Source: Hypericum androsaemum
Lineage: Eukaryota > Streptophyta > Magnoliopsida > Malpighiales > Hypericaceae
DNA length: 64,000 bases
Assembly (NCBI GenBank): GCA_963995505.1
Contig: OZ023183.1
Coordinates: 18,720,671 to 18,784,670 of the forward strand
Direction: 5' to 3'
Of this stretch, positions 1-56,351 are shown in pieces. The notes beneath the pieces were generated by a model. The model searched no databases. It saw nothing but the letters and a program-made list of their open reading frames with translations, and was not told the origin of the DNA. A program made the position numbers and the translations under genes. Numbering within the stretch: position 1 is the first letter of the stretch; each line of letters starts with the position of its first letter.

Positions 1-785
1 GTAATTTACCAAAAAGAAAGTAGAGTTTTGTAAGAGGAAAAAAGTAGAGTTTTGTTATAAAAAGAAAGGAAAAGTCCACATTAGTACCTTGTAGTTTGCT
101 CAATTATCAGAGATAGGTTTGTGGTTTCAAACTCATCAAGGAAGTCTCCTGTGGTTTCACGGACTCATCAATTAAAGGCTCGGATAGCTCTTCGAGCCTA
201 GTAACATCCTTGGAGCTTGCCAAATCAGAACGGTGTCATTTTTTGGCCTAGGTGGCACTCCACGTCAGATTAATTATTAACCCAAAATTACTGACATGGC
301 CTAGGTGGCACGCCGCGTAGGATTAATTATTGACCCAAAATTATTAACCCACATCAGAACGGCGTCCTCCTTCTTCTTCTTCCTCCTCCTTCCCTTTCTT
401 CCTTCTCCATTTTCTGATCTCAAAAAAATGGCAAAAAGGCAAGGTTCGAACCAATCTCCTTGAGACGGCGACCCAGAATCCCCTGTCAAAAAATCCACGA
501 ATCCCCTGTCAAAAAATCAATCTTAATCCCCTGTCAAGAACCCAAAAAAATCCTTCACCGACGAATCCTTCATCCCCTGTCAAAAACCCAAACTCACGAA
601 TCCCCTGTCAAAATCTCAAACCCATGAATCCTTCATCCCCTGTCAAAAATCCAAACCCACGATCCAACAACCAAGACACCAGGGGGAGGAGACGATGTGT
701 GGCCGGCTCCAACGACGTCATCGTCGTTTCCTCGGTCTCGACATTGGAGCAGCGACTTTGCCGACGAGTGGAGTTCGTCTAATTA
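1..785. other. Non-coding, repeat-rich left edge
   Basis: No gene is recognisable. Positions ~236-350 hold an imperfect direct repeat built around GGCCTAGGTGGCAC and TTAATTATT...ACCCAAAATTA. Such text with a CT-rich stretch (361-415) resembles the interior of a transposable element, but no matching second terminus lies in the window. The short minus-strand ORF at 301-498 has no protein-like features. Confidence 0.5.
478..655. repeat. Minisatellite, CCCCTGTCAA units
   Basis: The core CCCCTGTCAA recurs six times (about 480, 503, 528, 574, 602 and 637), followed by A-rich text such as AAAACCCAAA and often preceded by CGAAT or TTCAT. Spacing is irregular (23-46 bp), so this is a degenerate minisatellite rather than a clean array. 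Confidence 0.8.
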
Positions 786-3010
786 TTTTTTATAACCTTG
801 TTTGGATAGCAAAAAATTATTCTCGTGTTAATTGACGGTAGTTCAATAATCACATTGTAAATTATAGATGAATTAAGTATGACGACATATTACAAAGTTT
901 ATTTAAGAAAAAGCTACAGAGAAAATGCACTGTTAAATAATCGGTAGAAATTGGATCGTTTCCAACAAAAAAAAAAGAGGTTAAAAAATAAAATAAAAAG
1001 TATATCTGAGAAAAAAAAAAGAACACAAAATAATAAATGCGAGAAGTGAGGTACTCCGTTGATACAAGGAGATGCCTATTCGTGTTCCCGTGTGTGTGTG
1101 AGCTACCTACCGTAGGTGATTTTTGTCAGCTTTCCTTACTGCATTTGCTTTCGTGTTGAAGTAGCAGACTGGATAATGGAAGGGATTGCTTCAGTTGCTA
1201 GTGCCAAGAGCCAGATGCTCGGAAAGAAGCAAGGCAGGAACATTTACGTTAGAAGAATCCAGTTAGAGAATCTGCCAGATGCGCTTCTTCTGCACGTTCT
1301 GTCTTTCCTTCCAACAGAAAATGTTGTGCGAACCAGTGTCCTGGCCAAAAGATGGCGAAACTTTTGGAAGTTGGTCTCTCATGTTGACATAGAAGAGCTC
1401 GGAGAGGACATGTTGTATGACCTTCATGACTCTGAAGAAGAGCCTCCTGCAAGAGATTCCTTCATGAATTTTGTGGAAAGTGTACTGCTGAAGAGGGATT
1501 CTTCTAGCATAAACTATTTCACACTCACTCTGCGTACTCCGAGATGCATCCAGAATTAATAGTTGGATATTCGCCGCGCTCACTCATAAAGTTCAGAAGC
1601 TATTTCTGAAACTTAGGCAGATTCTTGACAAGGATTTTGAGTTGCCTTCCTGCTTGTTTACTTCTCAGTTTCTAACTCAGCTGAAAATAGAAATTATCTC
1701 AGATCTTAGATTTCCTCCTACGATTTTTCTTCCCAGACTTGAGGAGCTGGAACTATCATGTTTGACTTTTCCGGGACACAGTTCAGCAATCGGATTGTTC
1801 TCTGGTTGCCCAAACTTGAAGAAACTGAGCCTGAAAGATTGTGATTGGAGTGAAGTCAGAGCTATTTGCATATCTGCTCCCAGGCTCGAAGAGTTACTTA
1901 TAACTGAAATGATACCTTGCGACTCTCCAAGGGCTCCTCAAGTTGTTATTTTTGTAGAAAATCTCAAGCACTTTTCCTTGAGAGGAGACCTCATCAATGA
2001 CTATTTCTTATACTCGCCCGCACTAATATATGGTTCCATAGACTTCTTTTCGACAGATGATAGCAGAAGTCAGAGAGAAGTTGCATTCGGAGTGCACATG
2101 CTTCTATGGCAGCTTGCTGGTGTCAAAAGTTTATCAATATCACCCAACACTGTAAAGGTAATTTTTTCCAACCAGTTATAGAGCTGTTTACTTTCACCTT
2201 GTTGCTTTTCTTTCTAACCTCCAAAGTTCCGCTACTATTATCCTTGTCATAGGTTCTTGATTGGGCCAAAGATCTACTTGCGCATTTACCGTCCTTTCGA
2301 AGACTGGATAACCTCTATGGAATTGAGTCAGCCACGAGCTTTCCTTCCGAGGCATTGTTGACCATACTCCGAAAGTCACCTCGACTTGGTTTGCTTGATT
2401 TTGATCGGATAAATCTTAATTAAGTCAATGCTTCATCTTTTAGCCTGCTGCAGTATCGTCCTCCTGGCTTATGTATCTAGCATTTTTCACCGTTCGCTAG
2501 GGCTTTGCTTTATCAGAGAACTTCAAAGGGACACCAATAATCAACCCCGTACCTTCTTGCTTCTCAACACATCTCAAGACCATCAGGATCAAGAACTATT
2601 CTCAGACTGACGGGGAGTTGTACATTCTGAGTCAGTTGCTTCGCGCTGGAAGCGTCCTAAAGAAAGTGTATATCTCGACTCTCGAGTTAAAAAAAGATCG
2701 GATGCCATATTAAGGCTGTGCAGACAATCACGGAATTGCCAGATCATTCTCTCCTGCTCCTCAGTAGAGTTTGAAATTAGCAATGTGGATTGAGCTGCAA
2801 TTCTGCAATCGGCAAACTAATTTACCGCCTTTTGCTTCCATCGTTCACCTTTAGATAGAGCTAAATGTAAATGCACTGCATATTTTGGATTACCGGCCAC
2901 ATCTATTATTTTGGTTGCTTTACATTTTCAGTATTGGAACAATTTAAGTGTGAGCCCTAAACCATCGGTTCAAATTTTGGAAAATCTGTTTAAGCAAAAA
3001 ATTGTATTTA
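786..3010 (+). repeat. Segmental duplication, copy 1
   Basis: The similarity to 14.0-17.0 kb is not limited to the F-box gene. Upstream text (AATCACATTGTAAATTATAG, then GAATTAAGTATGACGAC) and downstream text (TTAAGTGTGAGCCCTAAAC) occur in both copies in the same order and orientation. Copy 2 carries about 0.8 kb of extra DNA just upstream of the start codon. The large Mutator-like element lies between the copies. Confidence 0.8.
1176..2793 (+). pseudogene. F-box/LRR/FBD gene, copy 1 (decayed)
   Basis: F-box/FBD proteins are substrate receptors of SCF ubiquitin ligases. The chosen start (1176) begins MEGIASVASAKSQ. An intact F-box follows at residues ~29-66, beginning LENLPDALLLHVLSFLPTEN and containing VRTSVLAKRWRNFWKL. 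Compared with copy 2 at 15.1 kb, about 2 bp are missing near 1535, so the frame ends at 1557. The LRR part resumes in another frame at ~1555-2157 (FLPRLEELELS, CPNLKKLSLKDCDW). A GT-AG intron lies at 2158-2252, and the next exon (VLDWAKDLLAHLPSF) hits a stop at ~2421. The FBD-like tail runs from 2501 (SENFKGT, LLRAGSVLKKVY). The frameshift and stop make it a pseudogene, although the isolated F-box segment could still be translated. Confidence 0.85.
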
Positions 3011-3514
3011 GGTGCACTCATTTAGTCAAAACCACATAATATGTGGGTACTATTATATGTTAGTATATTAATTAATCCAAATTTGAATAGGATGATGACC
3101 GGGTTGATGATAAGCAATATTAAAACAGAAATGTACCAAAGAACCAGCCCGATTTGACCATGTAGCCAGATTTTTTCCATTTTGTAGTTTCTAAGATAGC
3201 GATTACATTGTTTTAAATGAATATTTATTGAAAGAACCAACCCTAATTTAGAGGAGTCCTATACAAACTAAACAAGAATAAAATCAAAGTTGAGTGGTTA
3301 CGATAAAAAAGATATCGCTCTCCAATTGCTAAACGGCAAAGTCTTCGATTATTCCCTTCGACTTTTGTGGTTGGGCCGCATCTTTTGGTTATTGGATCTT
3401 TCTTGATCCGAATGAGCCATCGGTGGGCTAATGCAAATATCAAAGCCCATAAGAACAGGTCCAGGATCTGAAACTGGGCCCACCGGTGACCTTCCTTACC
3501 TGTCTCCAAGACGG
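3011..3514. other. Intergenic spacer left of the Mutator-like element
   Basis: No gene or RNA is recognisable. The stretch ends at the target duplication of the Mutator-like element. The minus-strand ORF at 3243-3674 runs across the element boundary and into its terminal repeat, so it is not a real gene. Confidence 0.5.
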
Positions 3515-3522
3515 TTAATAGT
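3515..3522 (+). repeat. Target-site duplication TTAATAGT (left)
   Basis: The 8 bp immediately before the left GGG end of the Mutator-like element; identical to 13588-13595 in direct orientation. Confidence 0.92.
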
Positions 3523-3797
3523 GGGTTTTTTTCCTGAATGGTGTTACTATTCACCATTTTTTGTGAAAAAAGCGTCTGATTTGAAAGTATTGCGGGGACG
3601 GTGTCCACGTGGCACGGACGCCGAAAAAAGTCGGATCTTGGGCCAAGATCCGACTTTTTTTGTCGGATGACCAAGATCCGACTTTTTTAGTCTGATATAT
3701 CATCCGACTAAAAAAGTCAGATCTTGGTCCAAGATCCGACCGTTTTTGTCGGATGACCAAGATCCGACTTTTTCTGTCGGATCTTGGTCGATAATCC
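3523..3797 (+). repeat. Left terminal inverted repeat with nested palindromes
   Basis: Inverted match to 13343-13587. The outer ~120 bp (including TATTGCGGGGACGGTGTCCA) are almost unchanged. The inner part is made of alternating AAAAAGTCGGATCTTGG and CCAAGATCCGACTTTTT units that form head-to-head palindromes capable of stem-loops. TIRs carry transposase binding and cleavage sites in this superfamily; the actual binding site cannot be read from sequence. Confidence 0.93.
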
Positions 3798-3949
3798 TAT
3801 TCGCTATAAAGTGGATTTCCGAAGGATATCGAGATCCAACTATAACAAGATCCAACAAAAAAAGTCAGATTTCGGTCGGTATAAACACCAAAATCCGACT
3901 TTTTCCGTCACTCACACTCCCGTCCCCGACATAGCCTTCCCGTCTGTCC

Positions 3950-4215
3950 CGCTCGCCTCGCCGCTCCCCGCTCCCCGCTCCCTGCTCCCCGCTCCCCGCT
4001 CCCCGCCCCCGCCCCCGCCCCCCGCCCCCGCTCCCCGCTCCCCGCCCCCGCTCCCCGCCCCCCGTCCCCGCTCCCGCTCCCCGCTCCCGCTCCCCGCTCC
4101 CCACTCCCCGCCCCCGTTCCCCGCTCCCCGCCCCCCGCTCCCCGCCCCCCGCCCCCGTCCCCGCTCCCCATCCCCCGCCCCCGCTCCCCGCTCGCCGCTC
4201 CCGCTCGCCGGCTTG
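3950..4215 (+). repeat. C-rich low-complexity tract (CCCCGCTCCC-like)
   Basis: About 265 bp composed almost only of CCCCGCT, CCCCGCC and CCGTC units, with nearly all G on the minus strand in runs of 3-6. The minus strand could form G-quadruplexes and the plus strand i-motifs. It lies between the left TIR and the PMD gene, in its promoter or 5' leader. The proline/serine/arginine-rich ORF across it is a composition artefact. Confidence 0.85.
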
Positions 4216-4255
4216 CCCGCCTCTCGGTCCGGCCCCCGACGTCGTATTAGGTAAA

Positions 4256-4395
4256 TTTTTTAATTAGTTAATTTTTTAATTAGTTAATTGTGAATGTTAG
4301 TTAATTGGTAAATTGGTGATGTTAGTTAATTGGTTAATTGTTGATGTTAGTTAATTGGTTAATTGTTGATGTTGGTTAATTGTAATTTGTAGATA
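4256..4395 (+). repeat. AT-rich tandem repeat, TTAATTG units
   Basis: GATGTTAGTTAATTGGTTAA and close variants recur about four times with a period near 27 bp, directly after the C-rich tract and before the GGTCCGACC block. Non-coding. Confidence 0.75.
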
Positions 4396-4409
4396 ATTGG
4401 TTAAAAAAA

Positions 4410-4670
4410 ATTTGGTCCGAATGGTGCGACCAAAATTTCGGTCTGACCGGTCTGGCCAAAAAATTGATCAGACCAAATTGACCAATTTATGGTCCGACCG
4501 GTTTGACCGAAAAATGGTACGACCAGTTTGACCGAAAGATGGTCCGACCAGTTTGACCGAAAGATGGTCCGACTGGTTTGACCGAAAGATGGTCCGGCCG
4601 GCCAGTTTGACCAAAATAAGGTCTGAGTGGTTTGACCGTTAAACAATGTGACCGTAATATGGTCTGTAAT
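4410..4670 (+). repeat. Left subterminal repeat block (GGTCCGACC...TTTGACC)
   Basis: Units such as GGTCCGACCGGTTTGACCG are repeated with a ~25-bp period, most regularly at 4490-4600, with degenerate versions on each side. The block ends ~130 bp before the PMD start codon. A block of the same motif in inverted arrangement lies at 12640-12870, upstream of the transposase start. Paired short-motif blocks near both promoters suggest protein-binding sites; that is inference. Confidence 0.8.
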
Positions 4671-4801
4671 AACGCTATTTTAATTAATTTTTTGATTAAT
4701 GTTCTAATTGTTCAATGTTTAACATTGTTGGATTTGCTAAGTTTGTTAATATATTGGTAAGTTAATATAATGTTCTAATATGTCTATTGTGTTGTTTAGA
4801 T

Positions 4802-7633
4802 ATGGATGCACAGCCATACGGGCATCTTCTAGGGAATGGAGGACCCTTAGATACGTCGGTATTAGTGCACCAGGACGTGTGGAACCGTGAGGTTCGTGAA
4901 GGGATTAACGATAATCAGGACACATTGTTGAAGATACACCGACGGAAATGGACGGTGTCTCATGTGCAGAACGAGACCTTTATAGCCTATATGAAGGAGG
5001 CAGGTTTCTGGGATGTGTGGTGTATTGGCTGGGTCGTTCTCGAAACAGCATTTGTTACAGCCTTGGTGAAGCGGTGGCGGCCCGAGATCCATACGTTCCA
5101 TATGCCTGTGGGTGAGATGACAGTTACTCTTCAGGACATTGCTGTGTTGTTCGGGCTTCCTATCGATGGTCACCCAGTAACAGGGTTGCAGACACCTCCT
5201 GATTGGCACGAGTTCTGCGTACGCCTATTTGGTAGTAACCCGGCAGATACCCCTGGAATGGTTTGGAAAAACCAAATTGCCCTTAAATGGTTCGAGGACC
5301 ATTTTGACCCTGCTACTATCCCAATTGATGCTGGTGATGAGGTCGTAAAACGATATGTTCGAGCGAATATATTGCGACTTATCGGATGCATTCTTTTTCC
5401 CGAGTCTAGTGATGCCAGGGTGAACACATACTGGTTGCCACTTCTAGAGAATGTAGAGGCAATTGGTTCTTACAGCTGGGGTAGTGCGTGTTTGTCACAC
5501 ACGTACAGCCATTTATGTAGAGCCACAAGCTCGACACGTTCACTTATTGCCGGGGCGATGACGCTAGTATGTATGTGGGCTTGGGAACGGATCATCCCAA
5601 ATCGTCCGATTTTGTTCAATCCGGCAGTGCAACAACCTGGGCAAGCACTGGGCATCAGGTACAAATTATTACTTAATGCGCTGTAGCCGCTGATTAACCT
5701 TATAGACTTGACGTGATATTTTTATGTCACTGTACAGGTGGAGTGGAAAATTTAACAGAGCGGCCAGCAAAAAAATAACAACCGTATCTGTTTACAGACG
5801 CAGGTTGGATGAGCTTAGAGAATCAGATGTAAGTAATTTGTTTATTAAATTTTAATGAATAGTTTTGACTTAAATCATACTGTGTTGCATACATATAACC
5901 ATGACCATTTGGACGAGCTACGACTGTGTGCATTTGTTACAGGTTGTATGGATGCCGTATAACGACGAGATTCTTAGCAATCTCCCGACAATATGCCATC
6001 GTGATTGTGGCTTATGGTTGGCACGAGTCCCGTTGATATGCTTTTTGCATGTGGAGTGGCATTATCCTGATCGGGTGTTACGACAGTTCGGATTACTCCA
6101 GGGTATTTCGGCTAGCCCTGAGATCGATGAGGCGACACATAGTGCGGTGGATGGTCGGGGTCAGGCTGGCCAAAATTGGAATGCTATTTACGAAGGCCAT
6201 GTGAAGATCTGGGTGGAATTTCGGACAAGATATGTGTATCACGGAGTACCTACATCGCCGTATATCCATTATCATGATGGATATATGGATTGGTACAGGA
6301 AGATTACTCGGCGATTCATCAGCCCTGCTAGCGCAATGTTACACATGAGTGTAAGTCAATTTAGCTATGTTAAATAAAGATGTTGTCTATTTTAATTTTA
6401 ATAGCGATGTTCCACAATGCTAATGATAATAAAATTTTATTTGTAGGCGGATGTTGTTGAGCATATACGCCACAGGTCTTCAGACATTTCAGAAATTCAG
6501 AATTTGTCGCAGGTTGTACTTGGGTTCGCCGGCGAGCAAAGACGGTACCTAGGTCTCCGCGACAGCCAGCCACCTGTGGGACTGGCGGAGCACATGACAT
6601 ACGATCTTCCTCAATCAGAGAGGGTATCTGTCGTGAGACGCAAAACCACCCTTTTCAACAAGCGGCAACCAATACCCCGGCCTGAGCCCGTACCTGGTTA
6701 TCAAGTGGAGCCCATGGTCTGGGAAGATTATCGGTCGAGATCGCAGATTCCAGCAAACACAGTGACGTCTCTCAGCATGGATACCTCCGCCTCTCATCCA
6801 TTCTCCCAGCACACAGATTTTGGCACCCCCAGTTCCGCTTCCCAGCCGTCCCACCAGCACTCGAGTTACGGCCTAGCCCACACTGGGGTGCCGCATTCTC
6901 AGCTGTTTACTCCCCCTAGGCAGAGGTATTTGTTTATCTTAATTTGTGGTATTAATTATGAATTTTATTACAATATGTTCAATTGATTTGATTTCATTAT
7001 TATATAAATTTTTGGGTTTGTTATTAGGGGTGTTCTCATTGGAGACGGTACAACGGCAGCTAGGTCTGTGCAGCCGTTTTCTTATGAACTGGGCCCTTCC
7101 GGATCGGGTTTCGGCGTCGCCCCCTCCGCTGCTCATCCATTATTCAGGGAAAATATATTTGGTTGGCCCCAAACTGGGGCTCATACGTCCGATACGCAGT
7201 CCAGTTTTGGTTTGACCCGGTCTGGTGTACAGACATCCCAACTATTTGAGACACCTACACAGAGGTTGGTTCTCTACAATTTGATGTGTGTAAATTATGA
7301 ATTTTATTTAAAAATTTTGAATTGATTGTATGGCTTTATTGTGTTGATAACATAATTTGTTGATTTTGATAAATTTGTATGATATTTTATAATAGGACTT
7401 CGCCACGTGATACTACAACTCATGGTAGTGGTGACTCTTCATTTGACGATCCAATCGATTTTGAGGATGAAGAAATACCTCTGGTCCGGCGTCAGCCTAA
7501 TCGGGGAGCTAGAGAGGCTGGTGTGCGATGTTTTACAGGAGGACACCTGAATGTGCCTGGAAAGGGAAAGGGGAAGGCGAATGCTCACGCAGATAAGCAT
7601 CAAAAGGAGAAGCCTCAGAAGAAGAAGAAGTAG
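4802..7633 (+). CDS. Plant mobile domain (PMD) protein encoded by the Mutator-like element
   Basis: Six exons, all with GT-AG junctions: 4802-5658, 5738-5828, 5943-6350, 6447-6925, 7028-7264, 7396-7633. Joined, they give an uninterrupted 769-residue frame with matching phases at every junction. The start MDAQPYGHLLG is the first methionine after an AT-rich leader. Residues ~35-445 form a plant mobile domain; visible landmarks are MPVGEMTVTLQDIAVLFGLP, the exon-2 junction giving RWSGKF, WMPYNDE, and a region ending YMDWYRKITRRF. The rest is low-complexity (Ser/Pro/His-rich, SQLF repeated twice), with an acidic patch and a lysine-rich tail (KPQKKKK), suggesting nuclear location. Cellular PMD proteins (MAIN, MAIL1) act with PP7-type phosphatases in gene expression and transposon silencing, and PMD genes are known inside plant transposons. 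Its role in the element is unknown. Confidence 0.88.
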
Positions 7634-7931
7634 TTTATGCTTCTGTACTAGACATTCGTTGGATGCTTTTATGACTGTATTAACTTCACTTTTTTTATGA
7701 TTTGTGTTTTAGTTCTCGAAACTTTTCAAACGTTATACCTTTCTAGATAAGTATGCCGTCAAGATATTAAACAAAGTACGGTATAAGGAAATACGACATG
7801 ACAAAACTAAGAAGTGCAATACTAAAATAGGATGACAACAATCTGAAATAACAGATAAAAAAAATGTCTTTATGTTTCTCAACACGTTGTCACAATTCTC
7901 ATCAGAATTTCCGGTAGGGACATATTTGCCA
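7634..7931. other. Convergent intergenic space between PMD and OB-fold genes
   Basis: Short AT-rich space where the PMD gene (plus) and OB-fold gene (minus) converge tail to tail; it must hold both 3' ends. No further ORF with protein-like features was seen. Confidence 0.5.
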
Positions 7932-9668
7932 CTATTCCTTGAAAACTCGTTTAACATTCTCGTGATCAACACTGAAATGTATTCGATTTTCTTCATACGA
8001 GACATAAATCTGTTCAAAAAATACTTAATTAGGTCAATGATTATATTAAAATAATTTACTGACGACGATGTAATGATAATATAAGCTTACATCTTTCACT
8101 AGCAACACACATCCATCACAGTAGGTACTCTCAATGTCTTGTAAACTTCCCGTGATTTCGCCAGTAGGATCCTTCATAAATTTATAGATATGAAGTCTTT
8201 GATAATTAAAAAATATGATTAAGAAATAAATAATATATTATAATATAATACCTGAAAAACTGCTCGGAAACTATTGCCGTATACATGTTTCTTCTTTTTC
8301 ACGTACATAACCATCTGCAAGTCTCTTAGTTAACAATAACATTACTTGCAAATTGCAAAATTTTCATATATGTACAAATGTTACCTGTGGAATTGTGATG
8401 CTTTCAGAGATTGTTTTTACATCCTCAATAGATACTCCATCAACGTTAGCTCCATACATCAAACCTAAAAAATTTAAAAATTAGATACTCCATAAATGTA
8501 AGTAACAAGTATGTATAAGTATTTTCGTAATACCGTGAGATAGAACAAATTCAATAGCTGTTGTCCATGGTTCATTGTTGAAAATGTCATTGGCTTTGCG
8601 GTCTGCTTCAGCTCGTATGGCTTTCCTTCGAAGGGCTGATTTAGCTTCAGCTTCCTTTTTATGCAGCTCTAACCTCTTTTGTTCTTGGAGCCACTCAAAG
8701 GCCTCTAAGCCATATAGTGCCTTCAAATCGGCACCACGTCCCTCAGGATATGGTGCTGGAGGATAAGGACGACGACCATCATAGGATGGTGCTGGACGAG
8801 TTTGTTCTTGGGAATCTTCATCAGATTCTCCATTTTTCTTGAACACTTTGACCACGTTCTCATCAGTAATGCTAAATAATTTGTTGTTCGGGTATGGGGA
8901 CGAGTCAACTTTTACCTGTTGAAGAACCAGAAAATCAGTAAACAACTATCTGGGACTATTGAGAAAAAAAAAAAGGATATGCTCACATTTTTAAGATACA
9001 ACACACATCCAGCTTCAACAAGACCGGTAGAGTCATTTATGGTACTAGTAATACTGCCTGTAGAATCCTGTAATATATTAAAAGTTTAAAAATTTTCTCA
9101 CATAACATAAATATGTAAGAATAAATAAAATTCTTTTAATTGTACCTTTAATGTCGCAAGTGCGCCAATTCCGACACGCTGAAAACGGGTCACCTCTACA
9201 ACCATCTACAAGCAAATACAAAATACTTGTTATAAAATTGACTATGATGCTAACTCAAATTAAAGGATAATGTAAAATTTCTTACCGACATAACTGTAGT
9301 ACCACTATAGGTATTTTTGAAGCTCTGAATACTTGTTCCTTTAAAACAGGTTCCTATCATCATCCCTGTAAAATAAATTAAAATTTAATAAAAATATTAT
9401 GTGATCCAATATAGAAATACGGAATACCTTCAACTGTCAAAAAGTCCATGGCTCTACTCCACGGTTCTGGATCTCGCTTGACAAGCTTGTAATAACAGTT
9501 GCTTTTGGTAGGTTTCTGAGGAGGGGCTTCTGATCTATCGTTGGATGGCCTCTGTAATCGTTTGAAAATATACCCAAACTTAGAACCACATAGAGCATTC
9601 CAATCGATTTGAGGATGCTCCGGCTCTTCGTCATCATGTGCGATTGGCTCTTTGCCACTTCTCCTCAT
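7932..9668 (-). CDS. Two-unit HROB-like OB-fold protein carried by the Mutator-like element
   Basis: Nine exons on minus: 9668-9428, 9365-9286, 9205-9146, 9067-8987, 8915-8534, 8464-8385, 8314-8252, 8171-8091, 8009-7932. Joined, they give an intact 381-residue frame with consistent phases and GT-AG borders. The protein is an internal duplication. Unit 1: DPEPWSRAMDFLTVEG, then TRFQRVGIGALATLKDSTGS, GCVLYLKNV, LFSITDENVVKVF. Unit 2: NNEPWTTAIEFVLSHG, then KDPTGEITGSL, GCVLLVKD, IHFSVDHENVKRVF. Corresponding exons have equal or near-equal lengths (80/80, 60/63, 81/81 nt). The pattern LKDxTGxI...GxVLxLKxV...NxVxVF resembles the OB-fold of plant homologous-recombination OB-fold (HROB/DUF4539) proteins; animal HROB recruits the MCM8-MCM9 helicase. 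Between the units is a Pro-rich stretch and a charged helix (EQKRLELHKKEAEAK). An upstream non-coding exon is possible. The family call is from memory of motifs. Confidence 0.78.
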
Positions 9669-9846
9669 TGGCACACCTGAACAATTATGACAATAAACAT
9701 TTACATAAAATGTGTAATGCGTCATTATTCTGCTAAGATAGAGTAACTTAAACTTCAGACTGTTACAAAGAAACTCAACACAACCCACATAGAGTTTCAC
9801 AAAATATTACAAAGTACAATCCTTTTAGTTCAAAATTAATTACAAT

Positions 9847-12532
9847 TCAACGTCCACGACGGCGTCTACTCGTACTTGCCCCTACGGATACAGCTGCCGC
9901 TTTAGCTGCTTTAGCCGCTCTTGCCGCCGTAACTGCTCTTATATTAGTACAATTGGCTTTTGTGTGACCCCTTGTTTTACAGAGCGTACAGCGGACGAAA
10001 GGCACTGTATCCATTTCATTATGTATGCGCTTCCGTGGCTGTCCTCTACCCCTCGCTAATCTTTCATCTGGAATGAGCCTTACAACCGTTGGATCTTCAG
10101 GATACGGCCAATATTTAGGATTGCCCAGAGGAACAAACTTCAGTTGGTAGCAACCTTGCGTGGTTTCCAGGCGATAATACTTATCCACAAATATCTTGTA
10201 ATCGATGCCAAGTTCAGTACAACACGCCATCACATGTGAGCACGGACAGTGGTAAGCCTGGAATTTGCCGCAGCCACAAAATCCTGTGGAAAGATTAACT
10301 GAATGCTTTCTGTCCCCCTTTTGTCTTCTCATATCGTACCCAGTGCGAACTTCGTACGATCCAACTGTACTGTCAGAAACTCGCACTCTATGTCCATTGG
10401 CCTTTCCCTCCCACCGCTCCAACCTGTTTAGGAGCTTCTGTGACATCAATATTTTGCCAGTACAGCTCTCTTTCATACACTTAGTTGATCTCTCTTCAAA
10501 ATATTCGGTTAGCTTGTTAAATGTCTCTGCCACCAAGGCCGTCACCGGTAAATGACGAACTTTTTTGAAGATCATATTTACGCACTCGGCAAAATTCGTC
10601 GTCATGTTACCATATCGGCGTCCGCCATCCCACGCTAAGCTCCACTTGGGCAATTCCTGTTCATACATCCAGTTGAAGACCTCCTGGTCGACATTCCATA
10701 TTTCTCGCATGTTAGCTTCCAACTTCCACAGTTGAGCTTGCATTCCTTACAACCAACATAGTAAAAATATTAAATGTGGAGTAACAACTTGTAAAATAGT
10801 TTTAGACTACAAAATATTTGTGCATGTCACCTGCAATCTTCATGACATTCCTCATGGCGTCATTTTTGAAGTGTTTGTTAAGATTGCTTGCTACGTGTCG
10901 AAGACAATATCGATGGGCGGTATCACTGTCTTCTCCCCAACCATACTCCGTATCCATTGCCTTTAATATGCCAGCATGTCGATCAGAAATAACACATATT
11001 CCATGTCGGCCAGGCGTGACGTGCTTCCGGACTTGTTTCATGAACCACGGCCAACTATCCGTGTTCTCACCTTCTACCAGAGCAAATGCTATTGGAATTA
11101 TAGCATTATTACCATCAATTACAGTGGCGATCAGGAGGACATGCTTGTATTTTCCATACAAGAACGTTCCATCAATCTCCAAGACAGGCATGCAATGTTT
11201 GAAAACTTCAATGCAAGGCTTGAAGCTCCAAAAAACTCGCTTAAAGATCTTTGTTCCAGGCACCAGTGCTTCCACGTAATGGTCGCAACCAGGGAGGGTG
11301 TGATAATATTCCCATTCAACAACAGTTCCAGGATTATTTGCCTTGCACGCTGCAAACCATTGCGGAAGGCGATTGTAAGATTCTTGCCAATCCCCCCATA
11401 AATCTTGAAACGCCTTCTCTTTTGCCCACCAAGTCTTCGTATACGAGGGTCTAAACTTCATATGGTCGTGGATCTCTGACCTTAAAGTGGCCACACGAAT
11501 TTCTGGTTGTTCCTCTACTCGTTTCTTAATAATTTGTGCAATGAAAGCAGAAGTGAGTTGTTTATGATCATGCGACTTTCGTAGGCGACCACAGGTATGG
11601 GGGTAGGTGTGTTTCACGATTTTCCATGGACTGAAAAGTGTGCCCCTTCTTTCCTGTGAGACACGGATCTCTCATTTGCAATCATCCGTCTCCCATTTTT
11701 TACACTTCACAGAAAAAGTTTCTGGCCTTGTTTCTTTTCGGACAAACTCACGCCCATCGTTCATTACGAACGCCTCGATCTCCCTCTTTGCATCAAATTT
11801 GCTCTTCCAAATCGTACCCTCTTTCAACAAACCAGAACAACTTCCATCTATTGCTCGGTCGCAATCCCATTCTTCACCATAAACAGTCATCGATGATTGT
11901 TCACCGGGATCAGTTAGAGCGAGTTCACCGTATTGTTGTTCTCGGTATTGTTGTTCCTCTTCTTCTACTACTTCTTCTTCATCTTCATCTTCTTCTGCTT
12001 CATTTTCGTCTTCTTCTGCTTCGTCTTCGTCTTCTACTTCTTCTGCTTCGTCTTCACGATCAAAATTGTATGTGGCATATGGACCCGTCTCTCTAGGATC
12101 ATTTTCAAACTAATCAAATATTGGTTCATGAGCAACATCCATCCCCGTTGACGTACCAGCTTCAACGACAAACGGGTTGTAATTATTAACCCTCTTTTCC
12201 ACAATGATTGTAAGCTTAATCTCCTTCACCATTGGTCCAAAGAAGTTAATCATGGTCTCCAGCATTATCCTAACATCTTCATCGTCGTTAATAAACATTG
12301 GACCAAATTGTCCTCTTCCAAATGGACATCTAAATATCAATGGCCCAAATTCTTCATTTGGACCTATTGGGATCTTTTCGTTAACTTTTTTCCGCAAGAT
12401 ATTGTATCTAACAAATGCTGCATGAAACTTCAACTTCTCTTTCCCACCACCTTGGTAATCAAAACCGGTTTCATTGTTGTTGAAAATTACTCCATCGTAT
12501 TTCAACTTTATTCTTATAACCCGGTTAGCCAT
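9847..12532 (-). pseudogene. MULE transposase (MuDR/MURA-type) with two nonsense codons
   Basis: Exon 1 is 12532-10831 and exon 2 is 10745-9847; the 85-bp GT-AG intron joins KIAG to MQAQLW in frame. Together they give ~866 codons in one frame, interrupted by TAG at 12110-12112 and TGA at 11672-11674. The TGA sits where the zinc-binding N-terminal domain would have Trp. Order of parts: N-terminal domain (MANRVIRIKLKYDG...), a long Glu/Asp run (~12060-11950), the MuDR-type domain (FSVKCKKWETDDC ... HTYPHTCG), and the MULE catalytic domain with the first two Asp of the DDE triad (LEIDGTFLYG, VISDRHAGI) and the C-x2-H signature YCLRH. Then come GGRRYGNMTTNFAECVN, a SWIM zinc finger (CGCGKFQAYHCPCSH), a CCHC knuckle (CTLCKTRGHTKANC) and a basic tail. 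No frameshifts were seen, so inactivation is by point mutations only. Confidence 0.9.
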
Positions 12533-12639
12533 TATGAATACTACAACAAAAGAAAACAGCATGCAATTCTATATTAGCAACACAAAACATAATTTATATT
12601 AACGAAAATATCATATAAACATACATTCTTCTCCATCAA

Positions 12640-12870
12640 TTTTTTGGTCCGACCACCTTAAGAACCAGATGAAATTTAATCGGACTGGCAGGGTGGTCAC
12701 TTTTTGTACTCGACCATCCGGAATTTACCAAGAAAAAATTCACAATCTGACCGGTCGTTCCGGTCAGATTGGTCAGACTAACCAGACCAGTCCGACCGAC
12801 CAGACCGGTCCGACCGACCTGACCGGTTCGACTCATTAAACCAGTCTGGCCATTGGGGTTGGTCAGTTTA
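12640..12870 (-). repeat. Right subterminal repeat block (GGTCCGACC/TCTGACC)
   Basis: Dense copies of CCGACCGACC, GACCGGTC and TTGGTCAG-type units, inverted relative to the left block at 4410-4670, lie 110-340 bp upstream of the transposase start codon. The minus-strand ORF here reads as a GlnThrGlyLeu-type repeat and is an artefact. Confidence 0.75.
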
Positions 12871-12880
12871 TAAAATCCGC

Positions 12881-13110
12881 ACACCCACAAAATTTTAAAC
12901 AATCAGATATCACACTCAAAAAATAGAAGGAATTAATAATTTCAAAGCTAAAATATACTAATTATTTTTAATTAATGAACAAACTCTACATATATACACC
13001 CACAAAATTTTAAACAATCAGATATCACACTCAAAAAATAGAAGGAATTAATAATTTCAAAGCTAAAATATACTAATTATTTTTAATTAATGAACAAACT
13101 CTACATATAT
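12881..13110 (+). repeat. Tandem duplication, 2 x 115 bp
   Basis: Two consecutive, virtually identical 115-bp copies, each starting ACACCCACAAAATTTTAAAC, the first at 12881 and the second at 12996. Non-coding, between the right repeat block and the right TIR. The near-identity implies a recent duplication. Confidence 0.92.
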
Positions 13111-13342
13111 ACCAAAATATTAAAGTAAATTAATTTACCTGGTTTTGGGCAGGGTCTTCTATGGTATGCAGGACGTCTTCGTATGGATGACAAAAGGCTT
13201 CTGCGAGGTATCCATTATATAGGCCATATGATCGACCAAGATCCGACCAAAAAAGTCGGATCTTGGACCAATATGATATATTCGACAAAAAATGTCGGAT
13301 CTTGGTCATATCCGAAATCTCCTATTCAGATTTCGGATATGG

Positions 13343-13587
13343 TTTATCGACCAAGATCCGACAAAAACGGTCGGATCTTGGACCAAGATCCGACTTTTTT
13401 TGTCGGATATATCATCAGACTAAAAAAGTCGGATCTTGGTCATCCGACAAAAAAAGTCGGATCTTGGTCCAAGATCCGACTTTTTTCGGCGTCCGTGCCA
13501 CGTGGACACCGTCCCCGCAATACTTTCAAATCAGACGCTTTTTTCACAAAAAATGGTGAATAGTAACACCACTCAGAAAAAAAACCC
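13343..13587 (-). repeat. Right terminal inverted repeat
   Basis: Inverted counterpart of 3523-3797, with the same GATCTTGG/CCAAGATC palindromic units. It differs by a few substitutions and by the loss of one ~30-bp unit. Related but diverged units continue inward to about 13230. Confidence 0.93.
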
Positions 13588-13595
13588 TTAATAGT
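13588..13595 (+). repeat. Target-site duplication TTAATAGT (right)
   Basis: The 8 bp immediately after the right CCC end; identical to 3515-3522. Confidence 0.92.
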
Positions 13596-15143
13596 AAGGG
13601 AGGGAAAACCGGAGACAGAGAGAGAGAGAGAGGGCGAGAGGGAGTAGCACCGACGGCCTTACTACAAGCACGTGACGAAGACAGTAACATGATGCTCCAG
13701 CGTACCCGCCCCGCCAGTGAACCTCGTCATTTTTTAAGATATAGTTTGAAAGTGAACTGAATATTAGAATTTACACAAAAATAGGATTTTGTAAACCAAT
13801 AAAACTTAGATATTCCCTATGTAAAAAAGAAAATTTTAGATTAATTGGTCATGGATTTGTTCCAATTTATCAAAAAAATTTCAAAAATCTTAACCGACTC
13901 TAACTTATATTAGTTAATATCCGGATATCATATAGTATTAATAAATAAAAATTCGATTTTTTAAGGTGAAATTTAAATTGTTTAAATTATATTGGAGTAA
14001 TTATTTTTATATAACCTTGATTGGATAGTAAAAATTATTCTCGTTTTAATTGAGGGTTTCTCAATAATCACATTGTAAATTATAGATGAATTAAGTATGA
14101 CGACGTATTACGAAATTCATTTAATAAAAAGCCGCAGAGAAACACACTTTTAAATAATCGGCAGTTCCCAACAACAACAAAAAGAGAGGTTAAAATGTAT
14201 ATCCGAGAAAAAAGCACACAAAATAATAAATGCGAGAAGTGATGTACTCCGTTGATCCAAGGAGATGCCTACTCGTGTTCCCGTGTGAGCTACCGTAGCT
14301 GATTTTTAACTGTCTTGGACTTGTATGGTAAAAGCGGTAGAAAGATAAAACCGAAATTCTAGGGACGCATCAAGGAATTGACGTGCTCAGTTCTAGAGGA
14401 TCACCGGAGAAGGTACTTCGTTTGAACTTTTGTCACGTACTCTAGTAGTTGGATGACAGGTGATTGGGTTAGTAGGTGGATGACTGTCACGTACTGTAGT
14501 AGTTGGATGACAGATGATTGAGTTAGTAGGTGGATGACAGGAGATTGGAGTAGCAGTAGACGACATGGACAAATTAGTAAATGTACGATTGGGTATAAAT
14601 AGGATATTAGAAGAATTGTAGGGCATCAGAATAATTTGTTACCGTGGTCATTCCAAGTCAAATCTCCGCCCCTCCCTCAGCCTTTCGAAGGATTGATGAA
14701 TGGATGGGGTGGATTAACCTTGATTTTTTTTAGGGATGGGATTAACCTTGATAGCTCCTTGCATCATCAACACTATTTTGCTTGCTTTTAATGACTTGCT
14801 TCGTGTTGAAGTAGTATCTTATGCTTCATAGTTGGGTTTCTTGTTGTTAAGATTATCACATTGTTAGTTACAAGTGTGGTGGATTCGTTATAAGTGCAAA
14901 AAATTCATCTACCCATAGCCTTGACTTTTGGGTTGGATATGGCATGGTAACTGAGGGGGTTGATTTCATGTCTGTTGTTGTCCTCACACGACCCATACTT
15001 CGTCGAACATTGGCGTGTTGAGATTACCTTGTTTGTAAGTGCGAAAAACCCACTACAATCTATAGCTTCAAGGTTTTGGGTCGGTCCCGAAGATTCCTAA
15101 CACTTTCTGCACTTGCTTTCATGTTGAAGGATTAGCTCACATA
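13596..15143. other. Intergenic; right flank of the element and upstream of F-box copy 2
   Basis: Starts with a (GA)n run (~13614-13640). From ~14000 to ~14305 the DNA matches the region upstream of F-box copy 1. From ~14305 to ~15105 it holds about 0.8 kb absent from copy 1, with a 54-bp tandem repeat but no recognisable gene. The minus-strand ORF at 14393-14626 is a translation of that repeat. Confidence 0.6.
14432..14539 (+). repeat. Tandem duplication, 2 x 54 bp
   Basis: Two adjacent 54-bp units starting GTCACGTACT at 14432 and 14486, each containing GTAGTTGGATGACAG and GTTAGTAGGTGGATGAC, with a few substitutions between them. Confidence 0.88.
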
Positions 15144-16777
15144 ATGGAGAGAATTGCTTCAGTTGCTAGTGCCAAGAGCCAGAGGCTCCGAAAAAAGTAA
15201 GGCAGGAACATTTACGCGAGGAGAACCCAGTTAGAGAATCTGCCAGATGCACTTCTTCTGCACATTATATCTTTCCTTCAAACATAAGATGTTGTGAGAA
15301 CCAGTGTCCTGGCCAAGAGATGGCAAAACTTTTGAAAGTTGGTCTCTCATGTTGACATAAATGAGGGAGGAGAGGACATAACGTACCCTCACAATTCTGA
15401 AGAAGAGATTCCTACAAGAGTTTCCTTCATAAACTTTGTGGAAAGTGTACTGCTGAATAGGGATTCCTCAAACATAAACAACTTCACTATCTCGCTCTTC
15501 ATACTACATGATGCATCCAAGGTTAATAGTTGGATATTTTCCGCGCTCACTTATAAAGTTCATATGTTGTGTCTGAAGCTTATGCGGATTCTTGACAATG
15601 ATTTTGAGTTGCCTTCTTGCTTGTTTACTTCTCAGTTTCTGACTCAGCTGAAAATAGATATGATCTCAGATCTTAGATTTCCTCCTACGATTTTTCTTCC
15701 CGGACTTGAGGAGTTGGAACTACGAAATGTGACACTTTCAGGAGACAATTCAGCAATCAGATTATTCTCTGGTTGCCCAAACTTGAAGAAATTGAGCCTG
15801 GATGACTGTGACTGGAGCAAAGTCAGAGTTATTTGCATATCTGCTCCCAGGCTCGAAGAGTTAATTATAACTAAAAGTTTACCTCGCGACTCTCCCAGGG
15901 CTCCTCGAGTTGTTGTTTTTGCAGCAAATCTCAAGCTCCTTTCCTTCACAGGATACCTTTTTTTTAGGAACCTTCACAGGATACCTCAACAATGACTATT
16001 TCGTATACTCTCCTTCACTAATATATGGTTGCATAGACTTCGATTCGACAGATGATAGCAGAAGTCAGAGACAAGTTGCATAACTAATGCACATGCTTCT
16101 ATGGCAACTCGCTGGTGTCAAAAAATTTCAGTATCATCTGACAGTCTAGATGTATTTTTTTTGACCAATTATCAAGTTGTTTACTTTTACCTTCTTGCTT
16201 TTCCTTTTAACCTCCAAAATTCTGTTGCTAATATCCTTCTCATAGGTTCTTGAATGGGCCAAAGATCTACTTGCACATTTACCATCCTTTGGAAGACTAG
16301 ATAGCCTCTATGTGATTGAGTCTGCCGCTCTGAGGCATTGTTGACAATACTCCGGAAGTCATCTCGACTTGGTCTGCTTGATTTTGATTGGGTAGACCTT
16401 GCGCAACTCAATGCTTCATCTTGTAGCATGCTGTAGTATTGTACGCCTGGCTAATACATCTGACATTTTCACCGGTTTGTCAGGGCTTTGAGTTATCAGA
16501 GAATTTCAAAGGCACGCTAGTGATCAACTCGGTACCTTCTTGCTTCTCAACATATCTCAAGACCACCAGGATCAAAACCTACTCTCAGACTGAGGGGGAG
16601 CTGTACATTCTAAGTCAGTTGCTTCGTGCTGGAAGCGTCCTGAAGAAGGTGTATACCTCGAGTCTCGAGTTGATGAATAGACCGGACGCCATATTAAAGA
16701 TGTACAGATAGTCGCGGAAATGCCAGATCATTATCTCCGCCTGCTCAGTAGAGATTGAAGTTAGAGATGTGGATTGA
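15144..16777 (+). pseudogene. F-box/LRR/FBD gene, copy 2 (decayed)
   Basis: Paralogue of the 1.2-kb copy. It starts MERIASVASAKSQ, but the F-box region has at least three in-frame stops: TAA after the Lys run at ~15199, TAA at ~15288 where copy 1 has Glu, and TGA at ~15336 where copy 1 has Trp. The LRR part is open at 15339-15995 (FLPGLEELELRNVT, CPNLKKLSLDDCDW), then disturbed by a small duplication around 15955-15985 that repeats an AGGATACCT-containing stretch. The FBD-like tail is at ~16487-16710 (SENFKGT, LLRAGSVLKKVY). Copy 2 keeps codons copy 1 has lost and vice versa, so both decayed independently after duplication. Confidence 0.88.
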
Positions 16778-18601
16778 GCTGCAATTCTGCATCTGATGGT
16801 TTTGGAACTAATTTACCGCCTTTTGCTTCTGTCGTTCATCTCTACTTGGAACTAAATGCACTGCATATGTTGGATTACTGCCACTTCTATGGTTTTGGAT
16901 GCTTTACATTTCCAGTCTTGGTCAATTTAAGTGTGAGCCCTAAACTATGGGTCCAAAACTTCAAATTTGGCAAATCTGTTTTAAGCAAAAAAGTTACATT
17001 TTGGTGGACACAATTATCCCTTTTTCTACCCACATCCTCAACCTGCCCCAACATAGGTCACATAATAAATAATTAATTTCTCTCCCATCCACATCAACCT
17101 AACCTAATTAAATATTTTTCTACCCACATCTGCAACCTGCCTCAACCTAGGTCACAGAATAAACAATTAATTTCTCTCTCATCCACATATTATCTACTAT
17201 CATTTTTTATTTATATAAAAATTATAATAAATATACGAAAATAATTATTCTGTAATTATAAACAGGAAAAAAATTATGATTAAGTAACACAATTAATTAC
17301 AAAAGTTAGAATATAAAATTAGAAAGAATTAATTCGAGATATAAAAAGATGCTGTCAATATTGGGCTCTATTTATAGAGATTTTTGATAAATACGAATTT
17401 TTATATTGTTTAAAGATAACTCTAATTTTTTAACCACATAAATAATATCCAAAAAATTTATTTGTACGATTAACATTGTACCAAGTGTAACTAACTAGAT
17501 AGAAAAGTAAAAATAAACAACGAGAGCGAGGGGGCGACTTTCGATTTATCTTTTTTTTGATTTTTTTTCGATTTTTTTCCCACCTGGCGGGGCGGGGGCA
17601 AGGGCGGGGCATGGATGCGCCTAGTCTTAGTGGAAACCAGTGGATATTTATTAGATTGACATCCGGTATCAGTCATGTCCATCTATATCAATTAATATTG
17701 ATTTACCCTTTCAAAAAAATTAATATTGATTTGAGCTGAGACTGGTGGGTCCGATGAAGGGGTTAATAATACTATAATAATACTTTTTTTAAACGATGAC
17801 AATAATGTCAGGTCAATTAATGGCATCCAAAAACTCAATCATGATATGATGAATACAGTATCAGTCCTTAAACATAAAGTAGAAGGATCCAATCTCATGA
17901 TCGTCTAAAACTCAAAATTACAAAAACAATTTAAATCTTATCCAAAAAAAATATTGGCATCCAAAGTCAAAAGCGGATCTCACATGACAAAAATGTCCCG
18001 CTGGCTCCTTGGAAAGAGTGAAGCGCGTTTTATTTTTTCTTATTCAAAAGAGTGGCGTTGCCTTTGTCTTCAAAAGATTCTCTCTCTAGCTACATTCCCA
18101 CCGAATAGAATTCAAGCTACGCATATAACTTTGTTTTTCTTTTCTACGATCCTATAATGTCATTATTATGTCTACAAATAGCTATTAATTTAAATTAAGC
18201 ATGATTTATAAGAAAATCCGAGTATCGTACCGAATTGATCCGGTGCAAACCATGTTACTTAACTTTTGGGATCTAATCAAAATCAGACCTTAATTTAAAA
18301 CTTCCAGATGTTGAATTCACATTGCAATTTGAAAGAGCGGGCCATGCAAGTGGGAGAATAAAATAAAACTAAGCAATAATTGAAATGGGATTCCAAATCC
18401 AAAAGGTCCTTTAGAAAATAGCTTAATAGTGGAAATCCTGCGTGTTATAATTCGCCCATACCCTTTGGAAGTTGATCCACTAACATTTCTCTGTCTGAAA
18501 AACCAAGGTATATCCTTTTAAGAACAACGATCCATGGCTATAGCCTTAATCTTCATCTTCAAATAGATTCTCATGTCCTTCCCAACCTTAGTTAACCAAG
18601 C
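16778..18601. other. Intergenic; short repeat, AT-rich
   Basis: To ~17010 it continues the duplicated F-box 3' region. At ~17020-17095 and ~17112-17190 a ~75-bp segment (TTCTACCCACATC...AATTAATTTCTCTC) is present twice. No gene recognised in the rest; the ORFs at 17430-17682 come from a T-rich run. Confidence 0.5.
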
Positions 18602-40997: not shown

Positions 40998-41331
40998 GTA
41001 TGCTGTTTTTTTTCTTCTTTGAATATAAGTGTATCTTCTTCCTTTGTTCCCCCTGTTATGGTTGCATAACAAAAATTGAACACGCATAACAAATAATAAT
41101 AGATAGATAAATGACACACAATATACCTAAATCCACGAAATCCAGATAATTAAGACGATGATACACCTCCAGACTATTTTAGAGCATATTCTATTATACC
41201 CACTAACAAAAGCCAAAATACTCATACATCACTGCAACAACAAATTAGGTACATTTAGAGTTTATAGTTCATACATTTTTTTAATGTAATTTAGTGCTTA
41301 GCTTAATAAATCAAATATTAAGTAGTATAAA

Positions 41332-41833
41332 TGTAGATTTCTTATGGTGATTATAACATATTATAATCGAAAAATTATAAAATAATTAACGTTAAATTAA
41401 TTAACGAACGAATTCGTTAAATCGTAAATACACTTATTTGTTGTAGTGCAGTATCCACAGGATCGTAACGAATTTTTGTCATTGGTCGGTTCTTACTCAC
41501 GGTATATTAGAGTCGAGAATAATTTCTACGACTTTATCTACCTCGGAGTCAAAACGAGAACTCAGGGATCAAATCAGTAATTTTTCTTCCCTGTTATGTG
41601 TGTGGTCATTCTCATTTTTTTCTCCCCTTTTTCTTCCTCTCTTTTAAAGAGGAAATGGCCTCTGCACTTATCATCACCAAAAGGTGATTAGCTTCATCCA
41701 TGTGGCAAGGCTACCATTGGTAGCTTGTCCATGTATGAAATTATGTGGCAACAATTTGCCACACAAATAAGGAGGAGGTGGACAATCATATGGGCTTGGC
41801 CCATGAACAATTATGGGTGTAAAAAATTCAACA
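41332..41833 (-). repeat. 3' LTR of the Copia element (minus orientation)
   Basis: Matches 49318-49816 over its length (for example AACGAACGAATTCGTTAAAT in both). Plus-strand ends are TGTAGATTTC and TTCAACA. Confidence 0.93.
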
Positions 41834-41848
41834 ATCTCCCACTCACAC
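41834..41848 (-). other. Polypurine tract
   Basis: On minus, GTGTGAGTGGGAGAT lies directly before the 3' LTR TG and primes plus-strand synthesis in LTR elements. Confidence 0.85.
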
Positions 41849-42906
41849 ATAATTAATCATAATCAATATTCTCTTATATCGTGTTTGGCAGATATTTCGT
41901 GCGACCAGCATACATCGAGTGCACGTAGTTAAACTCAAGAGCACATAACGGTCACTTGAATGATAGCATCTCGATATCTCCATTAAGTAAAGTATGTCTT
42001 ACCCTAGGTCTCATCTCATATTCCTTGTTTTCGCATGTGATTTCTGAAATAATCTATTTGTGTTCACTATTGTATTGCTCTCAATACAAATGGTGCACCA
42101 GTGAACCACGAAGCTTTTCGAATGTGATCGATAGAGAACCTTCTCCCTTAACACTATTTTTTCTATCATGATCTAGCCTGCTTTTCTAGTCAGCCTTGCC
42201 AGGTCGAATCAAACTATGACCCTTTAAAGACTTTCCAAGCTAGCAGCACTGAATCATATTTCCAAAATATATTTAGGATCTTAAGAGTAGAGTTCCAGAA
42301 ACTATAGTTTTCGGAGTTGGTCTCACACCAGGAAAACTGAAATCACTTAATAATAAATTAATTTCCCATCCATTGGTCGTAGACCACACATGATACAATT
42401 CATGTGCTATGGTATTTTCTCCTGTTAAAGGAGCACATGTCTCTCACAAATAACACCATACTAGAGCATCATCCTCGATATTTTAAAACAACAGCTTTAG
42501 TCTACACAAAGACTGCTCTAGGCTATCAAGACAGAATTATGGTAAGTTCCACTTATTTCTTACCATTGGATTTCAAATAATCCTATAAGTTTCAAAAAAT
42601 TTATTTAATGTAGCAACTATTGCTTACACATAATCTTGCGCTTTAACAAGACTGCTCTTATAGTTAAGCAAGACGGCATTCATATTTTAGAACAGGCACT
42701 CGATATTTAACAATGTTCCAAAAATTACCTCATCTCAATCAAGAATCAACTCATGACTCCCACTGAGGTAAACACCCGTGTGAGTGGGCAACTTCTCTGT
42801 CCGACATGCATTAGTAAATGTTACCTTAAATAATATTTACACAATACGTATTGCTAAAAATAATATTATATTGAAAAATAAATTCTTTACAATATGAGCA
42901 AAAATA
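41849..42906 (-). other. Copia 3' untranslated region
   Basis: About 1.06 kb between the RNase H stop and the PPT. No protein motif recognised; the plus-strand ORF at 41956-42171 has no family features. Confidence 0.5.
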
Positions 42907-45900: not shown

Positions 45901-46100
45901 ATTTCTGGAGCATATAACACATCATGTAGCAGTAGGGTGCATCCTTCACGCAGGCTCAATCTATTTGTACCTATCTCGTTGATATTTACGCGTGCGTTAT
46001 TGCCAACATAGATAGATTTTGCTCCAACCGGTAGTCGTCAAAATTTAACAAAAGTACCACGGTCCTTTGTCACATGGTATGTCGCTCCTGAATCAATCAC
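42907..46100 (-). pseudogene. pol: Copia Pol (protease, integrase, RT, RNase H), broken
   Basis: Protease motif DSGATYH; GAG-pre-integrase and zinc region (VVLWHSRLSHIGQDRL, CECCLEGK); integrase core with YTPQQNGAAERRNRTL; RT with YKAHLVAQGFKQQEGVDYED and DVKTAFLN; the catalytic YVDD at 43867-43878; RNase H with YTDADWGGDMDEKKSTSGY and DNQASIAFAKDP. Blocks 45959-45513 and 45242-44019 are in the Gag frame but separated by stops. The 43617-42907 block is in another frame. Several mutations inactivate it. Confidence 0.92.
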
Positions 46101-47033: not shown

Positions 47034-47390
47034 AACTATAGAGAATCATAAAAAAATGCGTGAGGAGTATATTTTCAGCAATACATTATAATTTACTATA
47101 CGTTCATAATTTTAAGCAATATAAAGTTCTTGATTAACCTCGAATTCAAAGTAGGTCACGGGTATGTTTTTCCTCACCCTTCGAGAATTAATTTTGAACT
47201 TTAAACGTTCAAAGTTCTTTAATAGTAAATTCAAGTGGATATATCTCATGGTAATAATAAGCAATTAAATAAATAAACTATTTAATTACAGAAATACACA
47301 TGCATCTTTATTACAACCATGAAAATACATGAAATTTTATACACATATGTACAAAAAACTTCTAACAAGATTTAAACCCATACAAAAGAT

Positions 47391-49300: not shown

Positions 49301-49317
49301 TCTGGCTCTGATACCAA
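49301..49317 (-). other. Primer-binding site (initiator tRNA-Met)
   Basis: On minus, TTGGTATCAGAGCCAGA directly abuts the 5' LTR; TGGTATCAGAGC is the usual complement of the plant initiator tRNA-Met 3' end. Confidence 0.92.
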
Positions 49318-56346: not shown

Positions 56347-56351
56347 AAACT

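Follow-up and report, generated by a model that had tools for sequence, protein, structure and literature searches.

A Mutator-like element (MULE) in Hypericum androsaemum carries, beside its own transposase gene, a PMD gene and an HROB-like gene with two OB-fold modules. The element is a single insertion at positions 3523-13587 of a 64,000-nucleotide stretch of contig OZ023183.1 (positions 18,720,671 to 18,784,670 of the forward strand), referred to here as the window. It is a three-gene plant DNA transposon with a decayed transposase, and we give about even credence to the explanation in which the PMD protein would be an anti-silencing factor on the fold of VANC21 and the OB protein, more tentatively, a helper in recombination. 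The features of the element are collected in Table 1; the splice sites of all three genes and of the leader introns are predictions from the sequence.

The terminal inverted repeats (TIRs) are 232 nt long and equal at 222 of 232 positions (95.7% identical), five of the ten mismatches lying within one 5-nt run. They are bordered by an exact target-site duplication (TSD) of 8 bp, and none of the other lengths between 5 and 12 gave a full match at these ends. A 26-bp palindromic end unit was found in 11 copies in the window (up to three mismatches) as opposed to none in 100 shuffles, and all 11 copies were confined to the terminal regions 3643-3782 and 13241-13467. The insertion combines TIRs, a TSD within the range of 8-11 bp given for MULEs (PMC6446971) and a MULE transposase domain. 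The preliminary description had reported TIRs and an exact TSD enclosing three multi-exon genes, and our analysis bears this out: the PMD gene has six exons and 769 stop-free codons, the HROB-like gene nine exons and 381 stop-free codons, all with predicted GT/AG junctions, and the transposase gene has a single coding intron. The MULE lies between the two copies of a duplicated F-box/leucine-rich repeat locus of the FBD type (780-3024 and 13998-17016; pieces 82-85% alike). We looked for an empty site in this flanking duplicate; the homology extends only up to 3024 and 17016 and does not cover the insertion point, and therefore no empty site was available for comparison.

The transposase gene sits upstream of the HROB-like gene on the same minus strand. 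Its product matched the MULE domain PF10551 with E 9.9e-19 (68.1 bits, cut-off 27.6), and its SWIM match of 16.8 bits fell under the cut-off of 19.6. This copy has a broken transposase but open PMD and OB frames. The second of its stops lies ten codons ahead of a stretch aligning to the Vitis fusion protein P0042, in a region corresponding to the MuDR-type DNA-binding domain of that protein. The element had been described as complete, which holds for its structure but not for the transposase frame. Because this frame contains two in-frame stops, the structurally complete copy is probably non-autonomous. Viral contigs searched with a transposase piece and a PMD piece contained no related locus.

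The PMD protein matched PF10536 with E 6e-73 (246.4 bits, cut-off 34.9). Its predicted fold matched the VANC21-DNA structure (PDB 9lnj), the sole significant match in the PDB copy searched, and on the strength of this model the PMD would have a VANC fold. Among viral structures, no PMD match was found at E<=0.001 (best 3.5). A 47-aa tandem repeat is made up of the ends of exons 4 and 5, and the introns that follow them are related; the repeat scored 102, whereas the best of 2,000 shuffles reached 51. We liken this duplication to the tandem peptide repeats that are frequent in the variable regions of VANC proteins (PMC5735166). DUF1985 was matched at E<=10 by 19 of the 55 PMD proteins scanned, the best at 0.0017. 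DUF7745, which may belong to the same fold group as a further family, was matched by 11 of the 55, with a best E of 0.00016.

Each of the putative leader introns of the PMD and transposase genes holds a tandem array. The array in the PMD leader intron (4489-4601) consists of 4.5 units of 25 bp with GGTYYGACC motifs, and the one in the transposase leader intron (12781-12832) is made of 18-bp units with the same motif. The sequence GGTCCGACC is present in two copies in either leader intron and in none of the other 62,853 bases of the window. With one mismatch allowed, GGTYYGACC had 53 matches in the window, 18 of them in the PMD and 7 in the transposase leader intron, for a whole-window expectation of 26.8 and with the two introns making up 1,147 of the 64,000 bases; strands were counted apart, so that five leader-intron sites were counted on both, and the density is partly circular, the motif having been derived from the very sequence used for the count. 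Because the motif was picked after seeing the sequence, we placed more weight on comparing the two leader introns with each other, which revealed 37 common GC-rich 8-mers against a shuffle mean of 0.68 and a maximum of 12 (500 shuffles). By their layout, both arrays follow the VANC/VANDAL pattern of a short motif in tandem in non-coding parts.

Two further repeats lie in or near these leader regions. An exact 115-bp tandem duplication (12881-13110) is located inside the putative transposase leader intron and is probably recent, because its copies are exact. Between the left end of the element and the putative donor of the PMD leader intron, CTCCCCG is repeated in tandem over some 250 bp (3957-4210), which may be leader exon or promoter sequence.

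In the best-supported reading, the PMD protein would serve the element as an anti-silencing factor that binds DNA sequence-specifically and has the VANC21 fold of VANDAL21. It would bind the motif repeated in the two leader introns, that of its own gene and that of the transposase gene, perhaps also the units within the TIRs, and such binding would block or reverse silencing there, so that both genes could stay expressed. An anti-silencing role had been suggested in the preliminary description. The suggestion gains from the VANC21 fold match and the VANC-style motif arrays, although the idea as such is not new, as it was already proposed for MULE PMDs (Ikeda 2017, PMC5418596).

Alternatively, the PMD protein and the arrays could belong to the transposition machinery, the arrays being sub-terminal sites for the transposase or an accessory protein and the PMD a mudrB-like helper of excision or integration. 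Plant DNA transposons often have sub-terminal arrays to which their own proteins bind. The ends of this element carry their own repeated palindromic unit, and mudrB has been described as apparently needed for integration (PMC6446971). However, the arrays lie in putative leader introns, not at the ends, and the only significant structural match of the PMD is to a VANC protein, for which the tested activity is methylation loss at its own element family (PMC5735166). We consider this scenario unlikely.

We identified 216 PMD relatives at E<=0.01 in a protein database including plants, of which 120 were listed and used. They are 30-41% identical over the aligned part, come from flowering plants where named, and none exceeds 42% identity to the window PMD. 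Transposase parts related to those of the window are also present in six of the 120 (P0042, P0073 and P0107 from Vitis, P0117 from Senna, P0071 and P0053 from Asparagus), and two from Euphorbia (P0001 and P0002) have an N-terminal transposase part; some of these joint proteins may be gene-prediction fusions. PMDs are known alongside MULE transposases in grasses and Amborella (Ikeda 2017, PMC5418596), and a survey lists several MULE groups with a PMD, in many cases antisense (Dupeyron 2019, PMC6446971), one of these groups appearing in its Table 1 with "unknown ORF and PMD (antisens)". In a quick tree of 121 rows, the end branch of the window PMD measured 1.02 changes per column and the nearest path 1.85. 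Its smallest well-supported set comprised 53 rows, including 11 of the 12 PP7-fused rows. Because of the long branch, the position of the window PMD in this tree is tentative, and we claim no single MULE-PMD clade.

That set bears on a different route to the same outcome, in which the PMD would mimic host proteins, entering or blocking the MAIN-MAIL1-PP7L complex and releasing silencing without reading the element's sequence. Both MAIN and MAIL1 contain a PMD and work in silencing together with PP7L (PMC5418596, PMC7156037), PMD-C members are found in MULEs (PMC5418596), and the presence of most PP7-fused rows beside the window PMD fits such mimicry. On the other hand, the window PMD is distant from the relatives examined, the arrays would be left without a role, and host PMDs, if they have the VANC fold, may read DNA too. 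Of the 26 genes with lowered expression across all the MAIN, MAIL1 and PP7L mutant backgrounds studied, 25 were reported to have a promoter motif (PMC5418596, PMC7156037). Mimicry appears quite unlikely to us.

The third gene encodes a protein that matched PF15072 (HROB) in two stretches with E 5.9e-16 (58.6 bits, cut-off 30.8). Scored alone, one OB half reached 31.8 bits, above this cut-off, and the other 29.7 bits, just below it. The two modules share 41 identities over 111 residues when aligned to each other, 30 standard deviations over 2,000 shuffles, and they agree in intron phase, with exons of 80/60/81 nt in one module and 80/63/81 nt in the other. They are an exon-for-exon tandem duplication. 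This duplication is old, since the halves have no clear similarity in DNA (best match 36 nt, E 0.006). In a protein database including plants, no OB relative was found at E<=0.01 among 2,213 candidates with lengths of 210-667, nor at E<=10 among 3,578 candidates with lengths of 431-1372; both searches require common exact 5-residue words, so a fast-evolving relative may escape them. Comparison with the 120 PMD relatives yielded nothing (best E 0.89 among the first ten matches listed), as did a sequence search of the PDB at E<=10. The single-sequence structure prediction of the OB protein had a mean pLDDT (predicted local distance difference test) of only 38.1.

A gap of 178 bp separates the OB and transposase coding frames, and a possible splice acceptor precedes the OB start codon. 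The OB mRNA may start further upstream and use this acceptor at 9677, in which case the OB protein would share the transposase promoter through splicing. We speculate that it acts on the homologous-recombination machinery of the host, either on a helicase of the MCM8-9 type or on single-stranded DNA, and might thereby favor repair of the excision gap or integration. In human HROB, one study found that the OB-fold contacts MCM9, does not support DNA binding and is dispensable for binding of single-stranded DNA (PMC11055865); contrary to this, another paper reports that HROB binds single-stranded DNA through its OB-fold (PMC11377751), and HROB was also reported as a single-stranded DNA binder elsewhere (PMC7290032). 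Because these papers disagree, the OB protein could have either role. A repair role, as suggested in the preliminary description, is plausible.

The same reports leave room for an OB protein that simply coats the single-stranded DNA of excision or replication intermediates, unrelated to MCM8-9. Two tandem HROB-type OB modules would suit such a coat. Plant Helitrons have RPA-like proteins, which would provide a parallel. The reported binding of single-stranded DNA by HROB agrees with it, and the dispensability of the human OB-fold for that binding, together with the poor structure prediction, speaks against it. We regard the coat as doubtful, though a possibility worth keeping in view.

Gene capture is well known for MULEs (PMC6446971), and the PMD and OB genes could be passengers, pieces of host genes taken up in the manner of Pack-MULEs (transduplication) with no role in the life cycle of the element. 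Both genes retain introns, as capture at the DNA level would give, and just one copy of the element was seen. In a Pack-MULE, the transposase is lost and host fragments lie inside; here the transposase gene is present though interrupted, and the PMD and OB frames are full and remain open where that of the transposase does not. A recent capture should closely match host proteins, unlike the window PMD at the distances given above. The lack of close OB relatives would likewise argue against recent capture from the host, within the limits of the word-based search. PMDs also accompany MULE transposases in other plants. An ordinary Pack-MULE capture is disfavored because of the transposase gene, the internal duplication of the OB protein and the divergence, and we think it improbable that the two genes are passengers.

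Besides the partial circularity of the motif density, several points weigh against the anti-silencing and recombination roles that we prefer. The PMD-VANC21 match has 11% identity and rests on a predicted fold, and a common fold is no proof of function. A search of the PDB by sequence with the PMD profile (E<=10) gave five weak matches, the best at E 0.51, and VANC21 was not among them. The DUF1985 score of the window PMD, 12.1 bits, is below the cut-off of 35.1. MAIN and MAIL1, both PMD proteins of the host, favor silencing (PMC5418596, PMC7156037), which is the opposite sign. Both leader introns are predicted only, and their arrays could have arisen from tandem duplication alone or be transposase sites. 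For the OB modules, dN of 0.65 and dS of 1.21 by NG86 correspond to a dN/dS of ~0.5-0.6, indicating mild constraint. Finally, the reading comes from a single copy of the element, and in that copy the transposase is broken.

Table 1. Features of the Hypericum androsaemum element in window coordinates.
Feature	Position	Strand	Details
TSD TTAATAGT, left copy	3515-3522	.	8/8 match to right copy
Left TIR with palindromic units	3523-3754	+	arm-to-arm comparison
Putative 5' leader intron, PMD gene	4251-4799	+	AG/GTAAAT donor; TTTAG acceptor 2 nt before ATG
PMD gene	4802-7633; exons 4802-5658, 5738-5828, 5943-6350, 6447-6925, 7028-7264, 7396-7633	+	PF10536; 769 aa, intact
HROB-like gene	7932-9668; exons 9668-9428, 9365-9286, 9205-9146, 9067-8987, 8915-8534, 8464-8385, 8314-8252, 8171-8091, 8009-7932	-	PF15072; 381 aa, two OB modules, intact
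Possible splice acceptor TTGTTCAG	9669-9677, ending at 9677	-	8 nt before OB ATG; inference
MULE transposase gene	9847-12532; coding exons 12532-10831, 10745-9847	-	PF10551; in-frame stops 12112-12110, 11674-11672
Putative 5' leader intron, transposase gene	12541-13138	-	AG/GTAAAT donor at 13139/13138; TTGTAG acceptor ending 12541, 8 bases before ATG
Right TIR	13356-13587	-	arm-to-arm comparison
TSD TTAATAGT, right copy	13588-13595	.	8/8 match to left copy

The window contains other elements. On the minus strand, 41330-49787 is a copia-type long terminal repeat (LTR) retrotransposon with direct repeats 94-98% alike and ~8 kb apart; its gag, integrase-like and reverse transcriptase pieces are split over separate frames. 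The region 53906-56347 looks like a gag-only LTR element: direct repeats of 239 bp, 98% alike, surround a single frame of 592 codons that encodes copia-type gag, Pol_BBD and a zinc knuckle but gave no match to a reverse transcriptase. An inverted repeat at 61347-62674, with 193-nt arms 90% complementary and 942 nt apart, is a possible further small element.

The preliminary description knew of no earlier combination of a PMD and an HROB-like gene in one MULE. The PMD half of this combination is not new, as PMDs in MULEs, their antisense orientation and the anti-silencing idea are already known. An HROB-type two-OB gene in a transposon was not met in the literature searched, nor was a link between PMD and the VANC fold, but that literature missed most subscription papers and either may be in print. 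For leader-intron arrays common to two genes of a PMD MULE, no dedicated literature search was made. PMDs are found both in host genes for silencing and in numerous transposons of plants, yet a 2021 review describes the function of the domain as unknown and says that how MAIN and MAIL1 work is mostly unclear. The match to the VANC21-DNA fold makes DNA binding by a PMD testable, with the element's own motif array as the candidate target. More generally, and with confidence somewhat short of even, we propose that PMD is the VANC DNA-binding fold, that the PMDs of flowering-plant MULEs are sequence-specific anti-silencers reading their own arrays, that MAIN/MAIL are members of this DNA-reading fold, and that a new transposon accessory, an HROB-type protein with two OB domains that acts on host recombination, was added in the present lineage. 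If PMDs do bind DNA and the arrays are their target, anti-silencing through element-encoded DNA readers would reach beyond the VANDALs of Brassicaceae, and there would be a molecular handle on the MAIN/MAIL pathway of the host. With the HROB-type gene, the known kinds of transposon helper would grow by one, which would offer a lead to MULE control of post-excision repair.

Among known systems, the MULE groups MUDR, MUDRAVI2, MDR, MULE-Monocots and MULE-Solanaceae_1 (PMC6446971) resemble the element in gene content, with a SWIM-bearing MULE transposase, a PMD that is often antisense and, in most, TIRs. They differ in that no OB-fold gene is named for them in the main text of that survey (Dupeyron 2019). 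The mudrB gene of MuDR is likewise a second gene beside a MULE transposase (PMC6446971), a likeness by description and not by sequence. The HROB-like protein has the Pfam HROB OB-fold domain in common with HROB/MCM8IP/C17orf53 (PMC7290032, PMC11055865), but human HROB has one OB-fold and is predicted to be 79% disordered (PMC11055865), whereas the element protein consists of two OB modules and linkers. The host PMD-C proteins MAIN, MAIL1, MAIL2 and MAIL3 also carry PF10536; their genes serve silencing and meristem maintenance (PMC5418596, PMC7156037), and the element PMD stands apart by its low identity to all relatives examined. VANDAL21/Hiun of Arabidopsis has three genes as well, for a transposase, a divergent open reading frame and a DNA-binding factor (PMC5735166), the PMD model has the fold of its VANC21, and both elements have 9-bp motif arrays in non-coding parts. 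VANC is drawn with DUF1985 and DUF287 (PMC5735166) in place of the PMD of our element, and VANDAL TIRs are absent or short and degenerate, 46-174 bp in the published table, although some relatives do possess TIRs (PMC6446971). With its long TIRs and no DUF1985 above the cut-off, the element does not qualify as a VANDAL, but it may work like one.
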